Notes under the pieces: model-generated
What the model was told of the DNA's origin: nothing
The model's database searches: none
What the model saw: only the letters and a program-made list of their open reading frames with translations
From: Natrinema salaciae
GTDB lineage: Archaea > Halobacteriota > Halobacteria > Halobacteriales > Natrialbaceae
Length of the DNA: 64,000 nucleotides
Direction: 5' to 3'
Assembly (NCBI RefSeq): GCF_900110865.1
Contig: NZ_FOFD01000001.1
Coordinates: 744,001 to 808,000 of the forward strand
Part shown: positions 25,059 through 29,785 of the stretch, piece after piece
Numbering within the stretch: position 1 is the stretch's first letter
Layout: every line of letters starts with the position of its first letter
Made by a program: the position numbers and the translations under genes

Positions 25059-25265
25059 TGTCTTTGCATAGAGACCCTGCTTGCGAGTGATGGGGGCCTG
25101 GACGCGCCGCCGTTCGCAGTCGTGTCCGCGGTTCGATCCGCGGCGAACGGCCGCCGCTCGAGGCGCGAGCGGAGAGCGGAATCGAACACGTTCGACGCAA
25201 ACGGGCCGGTCGAGAGTCGGCTCCGGCGAGCGGACGCTCCGCTCGGCGGATTGGCGTCGGAAAAG

Positions 25266-25350
25266 CGCCGAGAGGGAGATTTGAACTCCCGAGTCCGTGA
25301 GGACAGTAGATTTCGAATCTACCGCCTTGGCCGGGCTAGGCTATCTCGGC
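25266..25350 (-). tRNA. tRNA-Ser (anticodon CGA)
   Basis: An 85-base class II tRNA. The acceptor stem pairs GCCGAGA (5' end at 25350) with TCTCGGC, discriminator G at 25266. The anticodon stem GTAGA/TCTAC encloses the 7-base loop TTCGAAA, giving anticodon CGA. A long variable arm and the T-arm GGGAG-TTCAAAT-CTCCC fit serine tRNA. CCA is not encoded. A TAAAAA box (minus strand, 25375-25380) lies about 27 bases upstream. Confidence 0.95.
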
Positions 25351-25374
25351 TCACTCCTACCTACCCGAGTGACC

Positions 25375-25380
25375 TTTTTA
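25375..25380 (-). promoter_or_regulatory. TATA box of tRNA-Ser
   Basis: TAAAAA on the minus strand, 25-30 bases before the tRNA 5' end at 25350. Confidence 0.5.
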
Positions 25381-25675
25381 CCCGTTTCGATTTCCCGTCC
25401 GGCCTGTGACTACTTCTCGAAGCTACAGCGGGTCGGGACTTCTCGAGCACGTCGAGAGTCGCTGCAGTGTCTCGTCTCCGGTGGTCCGTCGAGGAGCGAC
25501 GGGACGGCGGGATACTCGAGGAGGGGCCTACTCGACGGACAATTCCGGAAGCCACCAGCGTCGTACACGGGTGAGTGCCCGATCGTGGAGAGGGCTCGAG
25601 CCGTGTCCCGTCACTAATCGAAACCCTCTTGACTGCCACAATTTACGGACGTAATCTTATATGGCCGTCTTTCGA

Positions 25676-27085
25676 ATGGCAGATTCGAACGACCCGACCA
25701 TGGCTACGATACGTTCTCAGCGCATCCTCGAGTTCGTCTTCTTCCCAGGCGTGGTCCTCCACGAACTTTCTCACGCAGTAATCTACTGGATTTACGACAT
25801 CGACTACCGCATCCGATGGTCGTTCTGGGACCCCGGAGTGGGGCACTCGCACGTCGTTCCTCACCGCCTCCCGCCAGCCCAGGCAGCGATCCTCACGAGC
25901 CTCGCCCCGTTTGTACTGTTGGTTCCGGCCGTCCTGATCACGGTCGCGCTGGAAACCGTTGGTGGGCTGGGGTTCCCCTTTGGTCGACTGCTCTTCCTGG
26001 TACTGTTCGTTCAGGGAATCGGCTGTATCCAGCTGGCGACGCCATCGAAATCGGACGTTACGAGTACCCTGGTCGCGCTAGGTCGCTTCGAGGGGCGACA
26101 GGCGTGGCTCGCGACGACAGCAGTCACTGCGCTTCGATTCACGCTTCTCGTTTTGTGGATCGGGGTCACGATATCCTACGTCTCCGGCGGCGGATTGAGA
26201 CTCCCGTCCATCGAATGGGCGTGGCTCGCCGGCGTCGTCTTCCTGTTCGCCGTCTTCGGCTCCGTAACCGATCGTGAGGAGGGATCGTTCGTCCGCTCGC
26301 GAGTGGACCTCCGCAGTCGGTATGCCACTTCCCTCTGGAGGAAAGACGACGACGAAGCCGCGGAACGGCACATTCTGCGCGCGATCGACACCGTGCAGGA
26401 CTACGAGCTCGACGAGCCCGACCCCTTCGCCATCTACGCCGGCTTTCTCCTCGAGAGCTGGGAAACCGATGCAGCGGAGTGGTTCTGCCGTCTCGCCCTC
26501 GAGATCGATCCGGACTGTGCGCTCGCACACGTCAACTACACGGCCGTGCTCGCCCGTCGAGAGGAGTTCGGTGCCGCCGAAGCGCACTGTGAGCGCGCGC
26601 TCGAGTTGGCCGTCGACGAGGAGATAAACGGCGCCAACTACGCGGCGGTCGCTCACGTCAACTACGCGGAAATACTTCGCGAGCGGGGCCGATACGACGA
26701 GGCCGAACGCCACTGCCAACGTGCCCTCGAGTTCGATCCGGAGCATCCAGTCGCCCACGCCAACTACGCCGACGTCCTCGTCGAACGGGGGGACCTCGCC
26801 AATGCCGAAAGTCGTATCGAACGGGCGATGACCCTCGGACCGGAGCTGCCGGCAGTTCGAATCGCTTACGCCGGGTTTTTCGCGGAACGCGGCGACGATG
26901 CGGCGGCGGACCGACAGTTCCGACGGGCGATCGATCTCGAGCCTGACTGCGTTCCAGCCCGAGAGGAGTACGCGGCCTTCCTCGAAGAACGCGGGCGAGT
27001 CGAAGCGGCGACCCGCTATGCGCCGTCGACCGAACGCGACGGGACTGCCCCGGAGAACCCGTACGAAGGGTCGGGGACCGAGTAA
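25676..27085 (+). CDS. Membrane zinc metalloprotease-like domain fused to TPR repeats
   Basis: 469 residues from ATG 25676 (alternatives 25661 and 25700). The N-terminal hydrophobic segment contains HELSH in GVVLHELSHAVIYW, the HExxH zinc motif in the membrane-embedded setting of site-2-type metalloprotease relatives. Four or five further membrane segments follow to about residue 200. The C-terminal 240 residues are tetratricopeptide repeats (for example AHVNYAEILRERGRYDEAER and the following AHANYADVLVERGDLANAES). A TPR module would recruit or present substrates. No SREBP-like target is nearby. The zinc third ligand is not certain, so activity is inferred. Confidence 0.65.
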   Translation: MADSNDPTMATIRSQRILEFVFFPGVVLHELSHAVIYWIYDIDYRIRWSFWDPGVGHSHVVPHRLPPAQAAILTSLAPFVLLVPAVLITVALETVGGLGFPFGRLLFLVLFVQGIGCIQLATPSKSDVTSTLVALGRFEGRQAWLATTAVTALRFTLLVLWIGVTISYVSGGGLRLPSIEWAWLAGVVFLFAVFGSVTDREEGSFVRSRVDLRSRYATSLWRKDDDEAAERHILRAIDTVQDYELDEPDPFAIYAGFLLESWETDAAEWFCRLALEIDPDCALAHVNYTAVLARREEFGAAEAHCERALELAVDEEINGANYAAVAHVNYAEILRERGRYDEAERHCQRALEFDPEHPVAHANYADVLVERGDLANAESRIERAMTLGPELPAVRIAYAGFFAERGDDAAADRQFRRAIDLEPDCVPAREEYAAFLEERGRVEAATRYAPSTERDGTAPENPYEGSGTE

Positions 27086-27094
27086 CGAACGTAC

Positions 27095-29785
27095 TTACCC
27101 TGTGTTCTTCATGCCGGCCGCGATTCCCTTGACGGTCAGTCGGAGGGTCCGCTCCTCGATGTCCGTTCGGTGGGTTCGGTTGAGCAGGTAGACCTGCAGC
27201 ATGTTCAGCGGGTCGACGTAGGGGTTCCGCCGCTCGAGGTTCTCGCCGAGCCAGTCGCGGGTGTGCAGGCGGTCTCGCTGGCCGATCTCGGTGATCAGGT
27301 CGGCCGTTCGCTCGTACTCGTCGGAGACGCGGGGGAAGAACCGATCCCGCAGGTCTTCGTCGGCCATGTCCGCGTAGCGCTCGGCGATCTCGAGTTCGGT
27401 TCGCGACAGCGAGAGGGCGGCGTTGTCCAGCGTCGTCCGGAAGAACGGCCACTCGTCGTACATCTCCTGGAGCGTCTCCACCGAGCCGCCGTCGTCGAGG
27501 TAGGCCTCGACGCCGGTCGCGATCGCGTACCAGCCGGGGAGGATACACCGCGACTGGGTCCACGAGAACACCCACGGGATCGCTCGCAGGTCCTCGACGG
27601 TGCGCTCGCCCGATCGGGAGGCCGGACGCGATCCGAGGTCGAGGTCCTCGATGACCGTGATCGGGGTCGCCTGCTCGAAGTACTGGACGAAGCCGTCGCT
27701 CTCGAGGAGGTCGCGGTACTCGCGGCGGGCGGCGTCGGCCATGGTCTCCATCGCCTCGACCCACTCGTCGCTGACTTCCTCCTCGGGCTGGTCCATCGAC
27801 TGCTTGCGCGCCCGCAACTGGGCGTTGAGCATCTGTTCGATGTTGCGCTCGGCGATCCGCGGGTTGGCGTACTTCTCGGCGATCGCCTCGCCCTGCTCCG
27901 TGAACTTGACCTGCCCCGTCACCGTCGAGTTCGGCAGCGCGAGCAGCGCCTCGTTCATCGGACCGCCGCCACGCGAAATCGAGCCGCCGCGGCCGTGAAA
28001 CAGCCGCATGGTCACGTCGTGGTCGTCACAGATCTCGCCGAGCCGGCGCTGATTCTTGTACAGCGACCAGTTCGCGGCGAGGAACCCGTTCTCCTTGTTC
28101 GAGTCCGAGTAGCCGAGCATGATCTCCTGGGTCTGGTTGCGCGCCTCGAGCGCCTGTGCGTAGGCCTCGTTCTCGAACAGCGTGCCCATGATCCGGCGCG
28201 CACCCGAGAGGGCGTACTCCGTCTCGAGCAGCGGAACGATGTCGATCCCGGAGTGCTCGGGCAGGGAGACGACGCCCGCCTGATCGGCCAGGAACAGCAC
28301 CTCGAGGACGTGGCTGGGCTCCTCGGTCATCGAGATGGCGTAGGTGTCGATGGCGTGGCTACCGTACTCGGTCTGCCAGTCGGCGAGACTGTCGAACAGC
28401 CGGAGGACCCGCGCCGAGTCGTCGGAGAGCGCCTCGGTGTCGCCGAGGTCGATCACCGGTTCGTCCTGCAACACGGCGTCGGTCAGGAACTCGACGCGTT
28501 CGTCCTCGGAGAGGCCATGGTAATCGATCCCCTCGGCCTCGAGGGCTTCCGCGATGGCGTCGGTGTGTTTCGCCTGGTGCTCCCGGAGGTCGAGACTGGC
28601 GAGCGAGAAGCCAAACGTGGCGACCTGCCGACGGATGGGATCGACGTGCGCGTCGACGACGCTCTCGGCCCCGTTGTTGCGCAGGCTCTGTGCGATGATC
28701 TCGAGGTCGTCGAGGAGCGCGTCGACGTCGTCGTACCCGCCCGGCCGGACGTCGCCGACGCGGCGGAGCCGCTCGCGCATGAGCTTGAGCTTCTGCCGGT
28801 AGGGCTCGCCGGGGTAGCGCTCCTCGGCGGTGCGCGCGCTGCCGGGCAGGCGTTCGCGGTCCCGCTCGAGCGAGGCCTGAAACGCGGAGCCGGCGTCGAT
28901 CCGGCTGCCGTCCTGACTCAGCACGCCCGAGAGGCGCTTGAGCTGTTCGCGGTACCGCTCGAGGACGACCGACCGCTGGCGCTCGAGGGTGTTCGCGGTG
29001 ACGTCGGGGGTCACGTACGGGTTGCCGTCGCGGTCGCTGCCCGCCCACGAGCGGAACTCGAAGAGCTTCGGAATCTCGAGGTCGCCCGGGACCTCCTCGT
29101 CGATGGCGTCGTCGAGTTCGTCGTAGACCTCGCCGACGACGTCGAACAGCGTGTTCTCGAGGTACCACTGCACGTTGCGCGCCTCGTCCTCGGGTTCGGG
29201 CTGGCGATTGCGCACCTGCGGGGTCTGCCAGAGGCTGGTGATCTCCGCGTCGATGTCCCGCCAGACCTGGCTCTCCTCCTTGTCGGTCAGCAGCCGCTCG
29301 TCCAGCGTCTCGAGGTACGTCGAGATCTCCCGGAGCTTTGACTTGACCGTCTTACGCCGGGCTTCGGTCGGATGCGCGGTGAACGTCGGCTCGATCAAGA
29401 CGTCGTCCAGGACCTGCCGAACGGTCTCGACGTCGGCCTCGCCAAGCTCCTGGGCCGCGGTCTCGAGGCTGTCGTCGAGAGTTCCCTCGTGGGAGTCCGT
29501 CCGGATGGTCCGAACGCGCTCGCGCTCCTCCGCGAGGTTGATCAGTTCGAAGTAGGTCGTGAACCCGCGGGCGACGATCCGCTGTTGATACGGCGAGAGG
29601 TTCCGGAGTTCCGTGACGAGCGGTTCGCGCGACTCGAGTTCCCCTGATCGGTAGTCGATCGCGGCCCGTCGACACGACTCGACGGTCTCGAACGCCTTGC
29701 GAGACGTCTGTTCCTCGAGGACGTCCCCGAGTAATGCACCGAGTTCGCGGACGTCCTGGCGGACCTCCCTGTTGTGGAGTCGCAT
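27095..29785 (-). CDS. ppc: Phosphoenolpyruvate carboxylase
   Basis: 896 residues, the normal length for a bacterial-type PEPC. Signature motifs: FTAHPTEARR with the catalytic His, the GYSDSNKENGFLAAN segment, FHGRGGSISRGGG at the glycine-rich loop, and the invariant C-terminus ending KGIAAGMKNTG. It adds bicarbonate to PEP to give oxaloacetate, replenishing the TCA cycle. It stands alone. The minus-strand TTTTTA at 29810-29815 lies about 27 bases before the ATG, so the transcript is probably leaderless. Confidence 0.96.
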   Translation of the reverse strand: MRLHNREVRQDVRELGALLGDVLEEQTSRKAFETVESCRRAAIDYRSGELESREPLVTELRNLSPYQQRIVARGFTTYFELINLAEERERVRTIRTDSHEGTLDDSLETAAQELGEADVETVRQVLDDVLIEPTFTAHPTEARRKTVKSKLREISTYLETLDERLLTDKEESQVWRDIDAEITSLWQTPQVRNRQPEPEDEARNVQWYLENTLFDVVGEVYDELDDAIDEEVPGDLEIPKLFEFRSWAGSDRDGNPYVTPDVTANTLERQRSVVLERYREQLKRLSGVLSQDGSRIDAGSAFQASLERDRERLPGSARTAEERYPGEPYRQKLKLMRERLRRVGDVRPGGYDDVDALLDDLEIIAQSLRNNGAESVVDAHVDPIRRQVATFGFSLASLDLREHQAKHTDAIAEALEAEGIDYHGLSEDERVEFLTDAVLQDEPVIDLGDTEALSDDSARVLRLFDSLADWQTEYGSHAIDTYAISMTEEPSHVLEVLFLADQAGVVSLPEHSGIDIVPLLETEYALSGARRIMGTLFENEAYAQALEARNQTQEIMLGYSDSNKENGFLAANWSLYKNQRRLGEICDDHDVTMRLFHGRGGSISRGGGPMNEALLALPNSTVTGQVKFTEQGEAIAEKYANPRIAERNIEQMLNAQLRARKQSMDQPEEEVSDEWVEAMETMADAARREYRDLLESDGFVQYFEQATPITVIEDLDLGSRPASRSGERTVEDLRAIPWVFSWTQSRCILPGWYAIATGVEAYLDDGGSVETLQEMYDEWPFFRTTLDNAALSLSRTELEIAERYADMADEDLRDRFFPRVSDEYERTADLITEIGQRDRLHTRDWLGENLERRNPYVDPLNMLQVYLLNRTHRTDIEERTLRLTVKGIAAGMKNTG

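Follow-up and report, generated by a model that had tools for sequence, protein, structure and literature searches.

A site-2-protease-like membrane domain joined to a C-terminal TPR array in Natrinema salaciae

Site-2 proteases (S2Ps) carry a reentrant beta loop after the HExxH helix, and in SpoIVFB both the C-terminal CBS domain and a linker are cytosolic, with the substrate held by the linker, which contacts it more than the CBS domain does (PMC11486902, in the portions available to us). TmcP, a member of DUF3267, is presented in the available part of PMC13252029 as a working S2P-type protease, in which mutation showed the HExxH histidines and the distal aspartate to be needed. A zinc protease followed by TPRs is known from BepA, an M48 enzyme that depends for its function on a cavity in its C-terminal TPR domain (PMC7950410, in excerpt). 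Among haloarchaea, Haloferax volcanii has S2Ps of several makes, HVO_0285 with a CBS domain, HVO_1870 with a PDZ domain and two without an extra domain, and their biological role is given as unknown in the excerpt of PMC9263693 at hand.

Here we describe a gene of Natrinema salaciae, located in a stretch of 64,000 nucleotides (the window; contig NZ_FOFD01000001.1, positions 744,001 to 808,000), whose product joins an S2P-like membrane domain to a TPR array. Like MjS2P (3b4r) and SpoIVFB, the protein has an HExxH helix, two strands thereafter, a distal Asp after a Pro-containing motif and an additional C-terminal domain past the last membrane helix. It differs from both in carrying a TPR array in place of CBS and PSxxD in place of PMD(GG), and from 3b4r in lacking about one membrane helix at the N-terminal end. 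With DUF3267 (PF11667) and TmcP it shares a short S2P-like membrane domain, HExxH, a distal Pro/Asp and a weak profile match, but it falls below the family cut-off and has a TPR tail. The joining of a zinc protease to a C-terminal TPR domain recalls BepA, which is a soluble periplasmic M48 enzyme, whereas the protein described here has a membrane domain. The Haloferax volcanii S2Ps are likewise S2P-type haloarchaeal membrane proteases, yet no TPR-bearing one is named in the excerpt of PMC9263693. Literature searches turned up no description of an S2P-TPR fusion, though this does not prove that none exists.

The gene, its interval and its relatives

The features of the locus are collected in Table 1. 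An in-frame ATG at 25661 is likewise open (ORF 25661..27085, plus strand, 474 aa), and residues are numbered in this 474-aa frame, so that ATG 25676 is M6. The latter is the better supported start, since the L003 homologue has Met at about the same place (MADSND / MGTNEW).

Table 1 Features of the fusion gene and its surroundings (positions in the window)
Feature	Position	Strand	Basis or remark
tRNA-Ser(CGA), bounding the interval of the fusion gene	25265..25350	-	one side of the interval
Fusion-protein gene	25676..27085	+	469 aa from ATG 25676; 474 aa from ATG 25661
Site-2-protease-like membrane domain, aa 20-205	25718..26275	+	hydropathy, AlphaFold2, profile match to 3b4r
HELSH, aa 34-38	25760..25774	+	sequence; putatively two His ligands and catalytic Glu
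Two beta strands after the HExxH helix, aa 49-52 and 64-67	25805..25861	+	AlphaFold2; place of the S2P reentrant beta loop
Invariant Pro83, second membrane helix	25907..25909	+	alignment of relatives
PSKSD, aa 128-132, after the third helix; Asp132 candidate third zinc ligand	26042..26056	+	sequence, relatives, profile alignment
C-terminal helix-pair array, aa 206-453	26276..27019	+	Pfam, AlphaFold2, fold match
Canonical TPRs, aa 253-430	26417-26950	+	five repeats
Phosphoenolpyruvate carboxylase gene (ppc)	27095..29785	-	other side of the interval; 3' end facing that of the fusion gene

The fusion gene is bounded by tRNA-Ser(CGA) on one side and, on the other, by a gene that we take, from its sequence, to be ppc. 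Of 28 further genomes of the genus, 27 have nothing in the corresponding interval (window 25351-27094 and L067-L095), which measures 100-157 bp in them; in the 28th, L072, it holds an ORF, presumably TnpB-like, and no tRNA was found within 1.5 kb. A homologue of the fusion was found at the matching place in the genome G009, which represents a second genus: it too stands between ppc and tRNA-Ser, in the orientation seen in the window and with its 3' end facing that of ppc, and a MoxR-like gene separates it from the tRNA-Ser. MoxR-like genes occupy the interval, with the protease absent, in at least five of nine genomes of other genera (L129, L130, L131, L132 and L135), including G010 from the genus of G009. 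The interval thus gains and loses genes. Identity between the window genome and G009 is 89% for ppc, 64% for the neighbouring iron-sulfur protein (by our assumption DmsB-like) and 44% for the fusion. The origin of the fusion fits an ancient gene that most lineages have lost, and it fits a transfer into a tolerant interval through recombination in the flanks as well. By operon logic, the neighbours (ppc, tRNA-Ser and the iron-sulfur protein) gave no hint of a substrate.

The initial annotation had called the combination unusual and proposed a search for the same fusion in other archaea. The TPR fusion was indeed rare: of the 125 family genomes two have it, its own and G009. The G009 homologue has the same two-domain architecture at 44% identity over 443 aa, and this conservation in a second genus indicates that the fusion is not a chance one. 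The 200-residue membrane part alone matched 3 of the 125 genomes, namely these two and G119, where the domain is followed by a different C-terminal half. When the G009 homologue was used as query, 1 of the 61 family genomes listed matched at E 1e-20, G009 itself; the genome of the window (G000) was not among the 61. Searches of the order, the phylum and f17 showed no further TPR fusion among the fetched loci and the few long frames read. The long frames of G383, G398, G374, G399 and G160 were single-domain, out-of-frame extensions or unrelated, and none had TPRs.

Single-domain relatives are common in haloarchaea, the closest to the window type being L041, L104 and L123 (judged by eye beyond L041). 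Four loci (L039, L100, L004 and L042) have the same membrane domain and motifs and differ in their other long C-terminal parts, which are not TPRs; HEAT models scored above cut-off in L100 and L039, with weak HEAT matches only in L004 and L042. In many haloarchaea single-domain members (L050, L052, L056, L058, L063, L064 and others) adjoin a gene whose product has another HExxH zinc motif, HEIGHxxGLEHC, and which we presume to encode an archaemetzincin; the two zinc proteases may form a conserved pair. Apart from the fusion, the genome of the window encodes a canonical DUF3267 protein about 360 aa long (L017, G000:C2:623030-623341, E 4.1e-27).

In a phylum search with query A2, 34 of 392 genomes matched, many of them weakly. 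By motif script, 14 of 15 loci from this search had HExxH and 10 had SxxD; L106, missed by the script, has both motifs on direct reading. No SxxD was found in L113, L115, L116 and L117, which may be other zinc proteins. Against genome contigs, the full protein gave 63 stretches, none confirmed, and query A2 gave three single-domain loci from 189 stretches, one in Diapherotrites and two in Hermodarchaeota. These relatives (L097, L098 and L099) come from MAGs, and the Hermodarchaeota ones keep an Asp without the PS of PSxxD. Mobile origins were considered and rejected: the 200-aa membrane part had no match in plasmids, the full protein had none in phages, and of 75 stretches found in viral contigs with query A2 none was confirmed. 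An anti-phage defence gene was likewise rejected, PADLOC giving the window protein weak matches in the TPR part only (best E 3.3e-4).

The TPR array

The C-terminal half, in which five or more TPRs had been noticed from the sequence alone, contains five canonical TPRs beginning at aa 253, 287, 329, 363 and 397, preceded by a degenerate helix pair (206-247) and followed by an incomplete repeat (431-453). They are tandem 34-residue helix pairs with the canonical residues present. Pfam TPR_12 matched with 1.7e-15, further TPR models scored above cut-off, and the AlphaFold2 model of the full protein (pLDDT 85.7, pTM 0.79) has paired helices throughout aa 206-453, matching the TPRs of OGT structurally with Z about 21. 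The NCBIfam BepA model matched the TPR part alone and stayed far below cut-off (13.6 vs 570 bits). Given the seven K/R in aa 201-230 and the five Cys in the TPR part, the array is probably cytosolic.

Between the two homologues the TPR part is 50% identical and the membrane domain 39%. The better conservation of the TPR part is due to the canonical structural positions, of which 33 of 40 are identical; of the concave-face positions 10 of 25 are identical, against 47 of 105 other non-canonical ones, which gives no sign of a conserved ligand common to the two proteins. The proposal of the initial annotation, regulated proteolysis with built-in docking, held up in part: the zinc-protease-like domain with its D132, the TPR array and the rarity of the combination all agree with it, while the concave face does not point to a conserved ligand. 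Docking of a substrate by the array remains plausible by analogy.

The same figures bear on a different role for the array, in which it would serve as an assembly module that brings the protease into a larger complex, with further copies of itself, with a chaperone or with an AAA ATPase, for example MoxR, while the membrane domain would pick the substrates. Strong conservation of canonical positions beside a variable concave face is what such a module might display, and in G009 the MoxR-like ATPase gene lies directly upstream of the fusion on the same strand, 155 bp off (L035). Two sequences are, however, too few for testing surface conservation, and pairing of MoxR with the protease is not conserved, since MoxR-like genes occur in the interval without the protease in the other genera, as given above, and none stands beside the fusion gene of the window. 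We therefore regard an assembly role as possible but doubtful, and keep to the reading in which the array binds a substrate or adaptor.

The membrane domain and its zinc motifs

Since fold searches with the whole model were dominated by TPR chains, the membrane domain was folded separately (pLDDT 80.6, pTM 0.72). Its AlphaFold2 helices span 12-26/28-44 (a kinked first helix, which holds HELSH), 73-101, 106-126, 130-140, 145-174 and 184-200, and we count it as a five-helix domain. By hydropathy HELSH sits in the first hydrophobic segment (aa 22-41), and the reading of this segment as the mark of a membrane metalloprotease-like domain was borne out by a profile of 34 membrane domains, which matched MjS2P (3b4r, MJ0392) with E 5.4e-6 over profile positions 8-166. 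In this alignment the two HExxH motifs coincide, and the PSxxD aspartate is placed opposite the Asp of MJ0392. Structural matches were weaker. Foldseek ranked SpoIVFB first (E 0.053, prob 0.98), with no hit at E < 0.001, and VIA ranked 3b4r first at Z 6.2 over 146 residues and 6.1 A, a score that unrelated 14-3-3 chains also reached, aligning model residues 1-215 with 26-214 of 3b4r. The match to Pfam PF11667 (DUF3267; E 2.4e-4) had 21.9 bits and was below the cut-off of 27.1.

Absence of a third zinc ligand had been named as the observation that would count against a protease. A candidate, D132 in PSKSD, is present. In the order search with the domain profile (392 genomes, 115 matched), HExxH and PSxxD occurred together in all 30 best-scoring loci, the window's own included; in L053 and L062 PSxxD was read directly, the motif script having caught an earlier SxxD. 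This count is the unbiased one. The rows of alignments A3 and A4 were picked by a regular expression requiring the distal Asp, so the invariance of S129 and D132 there partly comes from selection, and L099, which lacks the pattern and has VSNKD at that place, was left out of them. Based on the two motifs in the relatives, the profile match to 3b4r, the position of the strands and the sub-threshold DUF3267 score, we assign the membrane domain to the S2P clan (clan MM, M50-like) and not to PF11667 proper.

From these motifs we infer that the domain binds zinc and acts as a protease. A pseudoprotease or scaffold that keeps the S2P-like fold and does not cut is an alternative, and SpoIVFB itself was purified without zinc, as stated in the portions of PMC11486902 available to us. 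Drift would be expected in a non-enzyme, though, and H34, E35, H38, P128, S129 and D132 are unchanged in both TPR-fusion homologues while their membrane domains are only 39% identical, which makes loss of activity improbable. A chance origin of HELSH, in some unrelated membrane protein that merely happens to have TPRs, is hardly credible and was rejected, for, frequent as HExxH alone is by chance and although the single sequence found no match among PDB sequences, the 3b4r profile match aligns both motifs and PSxxD accompanies HExxH in every one of the 30 loci.

Proposed mode of action and wider reading

Taken together, we favour, with reasonable rather than high confidence, an intramembrane zinc protease of the S2P clan whose C-terminal TPRs probably bind substrate or an adaptor. 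One zinc would be held by H34, H38 and D132, with E35 as the general base. A membrane-bound or membrane-inserted peptide would be cut, offered as an extended strand beside the strands that follow HExxH, as in SpoIVFB. The array, directly after the last membrane helix and probably in the cytosol, where MjS2P and SpoIVFB have CBS, would most likely bind an adaptor, or else the substrate through its cytosolic part, and thereby select or gate cleavage. The analogy on which docking draws may fail, since the CBS domain of SpoIVFB touches the substrate little (PMC11486902, in part), and most relatives of the membrane domain have no repeat domain, a further point against this reading.

More tentatively, and as something we think possible rather than probable, haloarchaea may have a little-noticed family of small proteases of the S2P clan that share one membrane core and exchange between lineages the cytosolic solenoid at its C-terminus (TPRs in the protein described here, HEAT repeats elsewhere, no solenoid in most members). 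The solenoid would be an adaptor for substrates or partners, and swapping it would re-aim the core.

The components are familiar, and the protein varies a theme already known from S2Ps with CBS or PDZ domains and from BepA; the joining of an S2P-like domain to TPRs is genuine, uncommon and shared by two genera. Substrate choice by S2P-type proteases is poorly understood, above all in archaea. A protease that carries a large, soluble and separable repeat domain in one chain would permit substrate fishing with the TPR part alone, and docking would be testable by deletion of the TPRs, in a group with good genetics.
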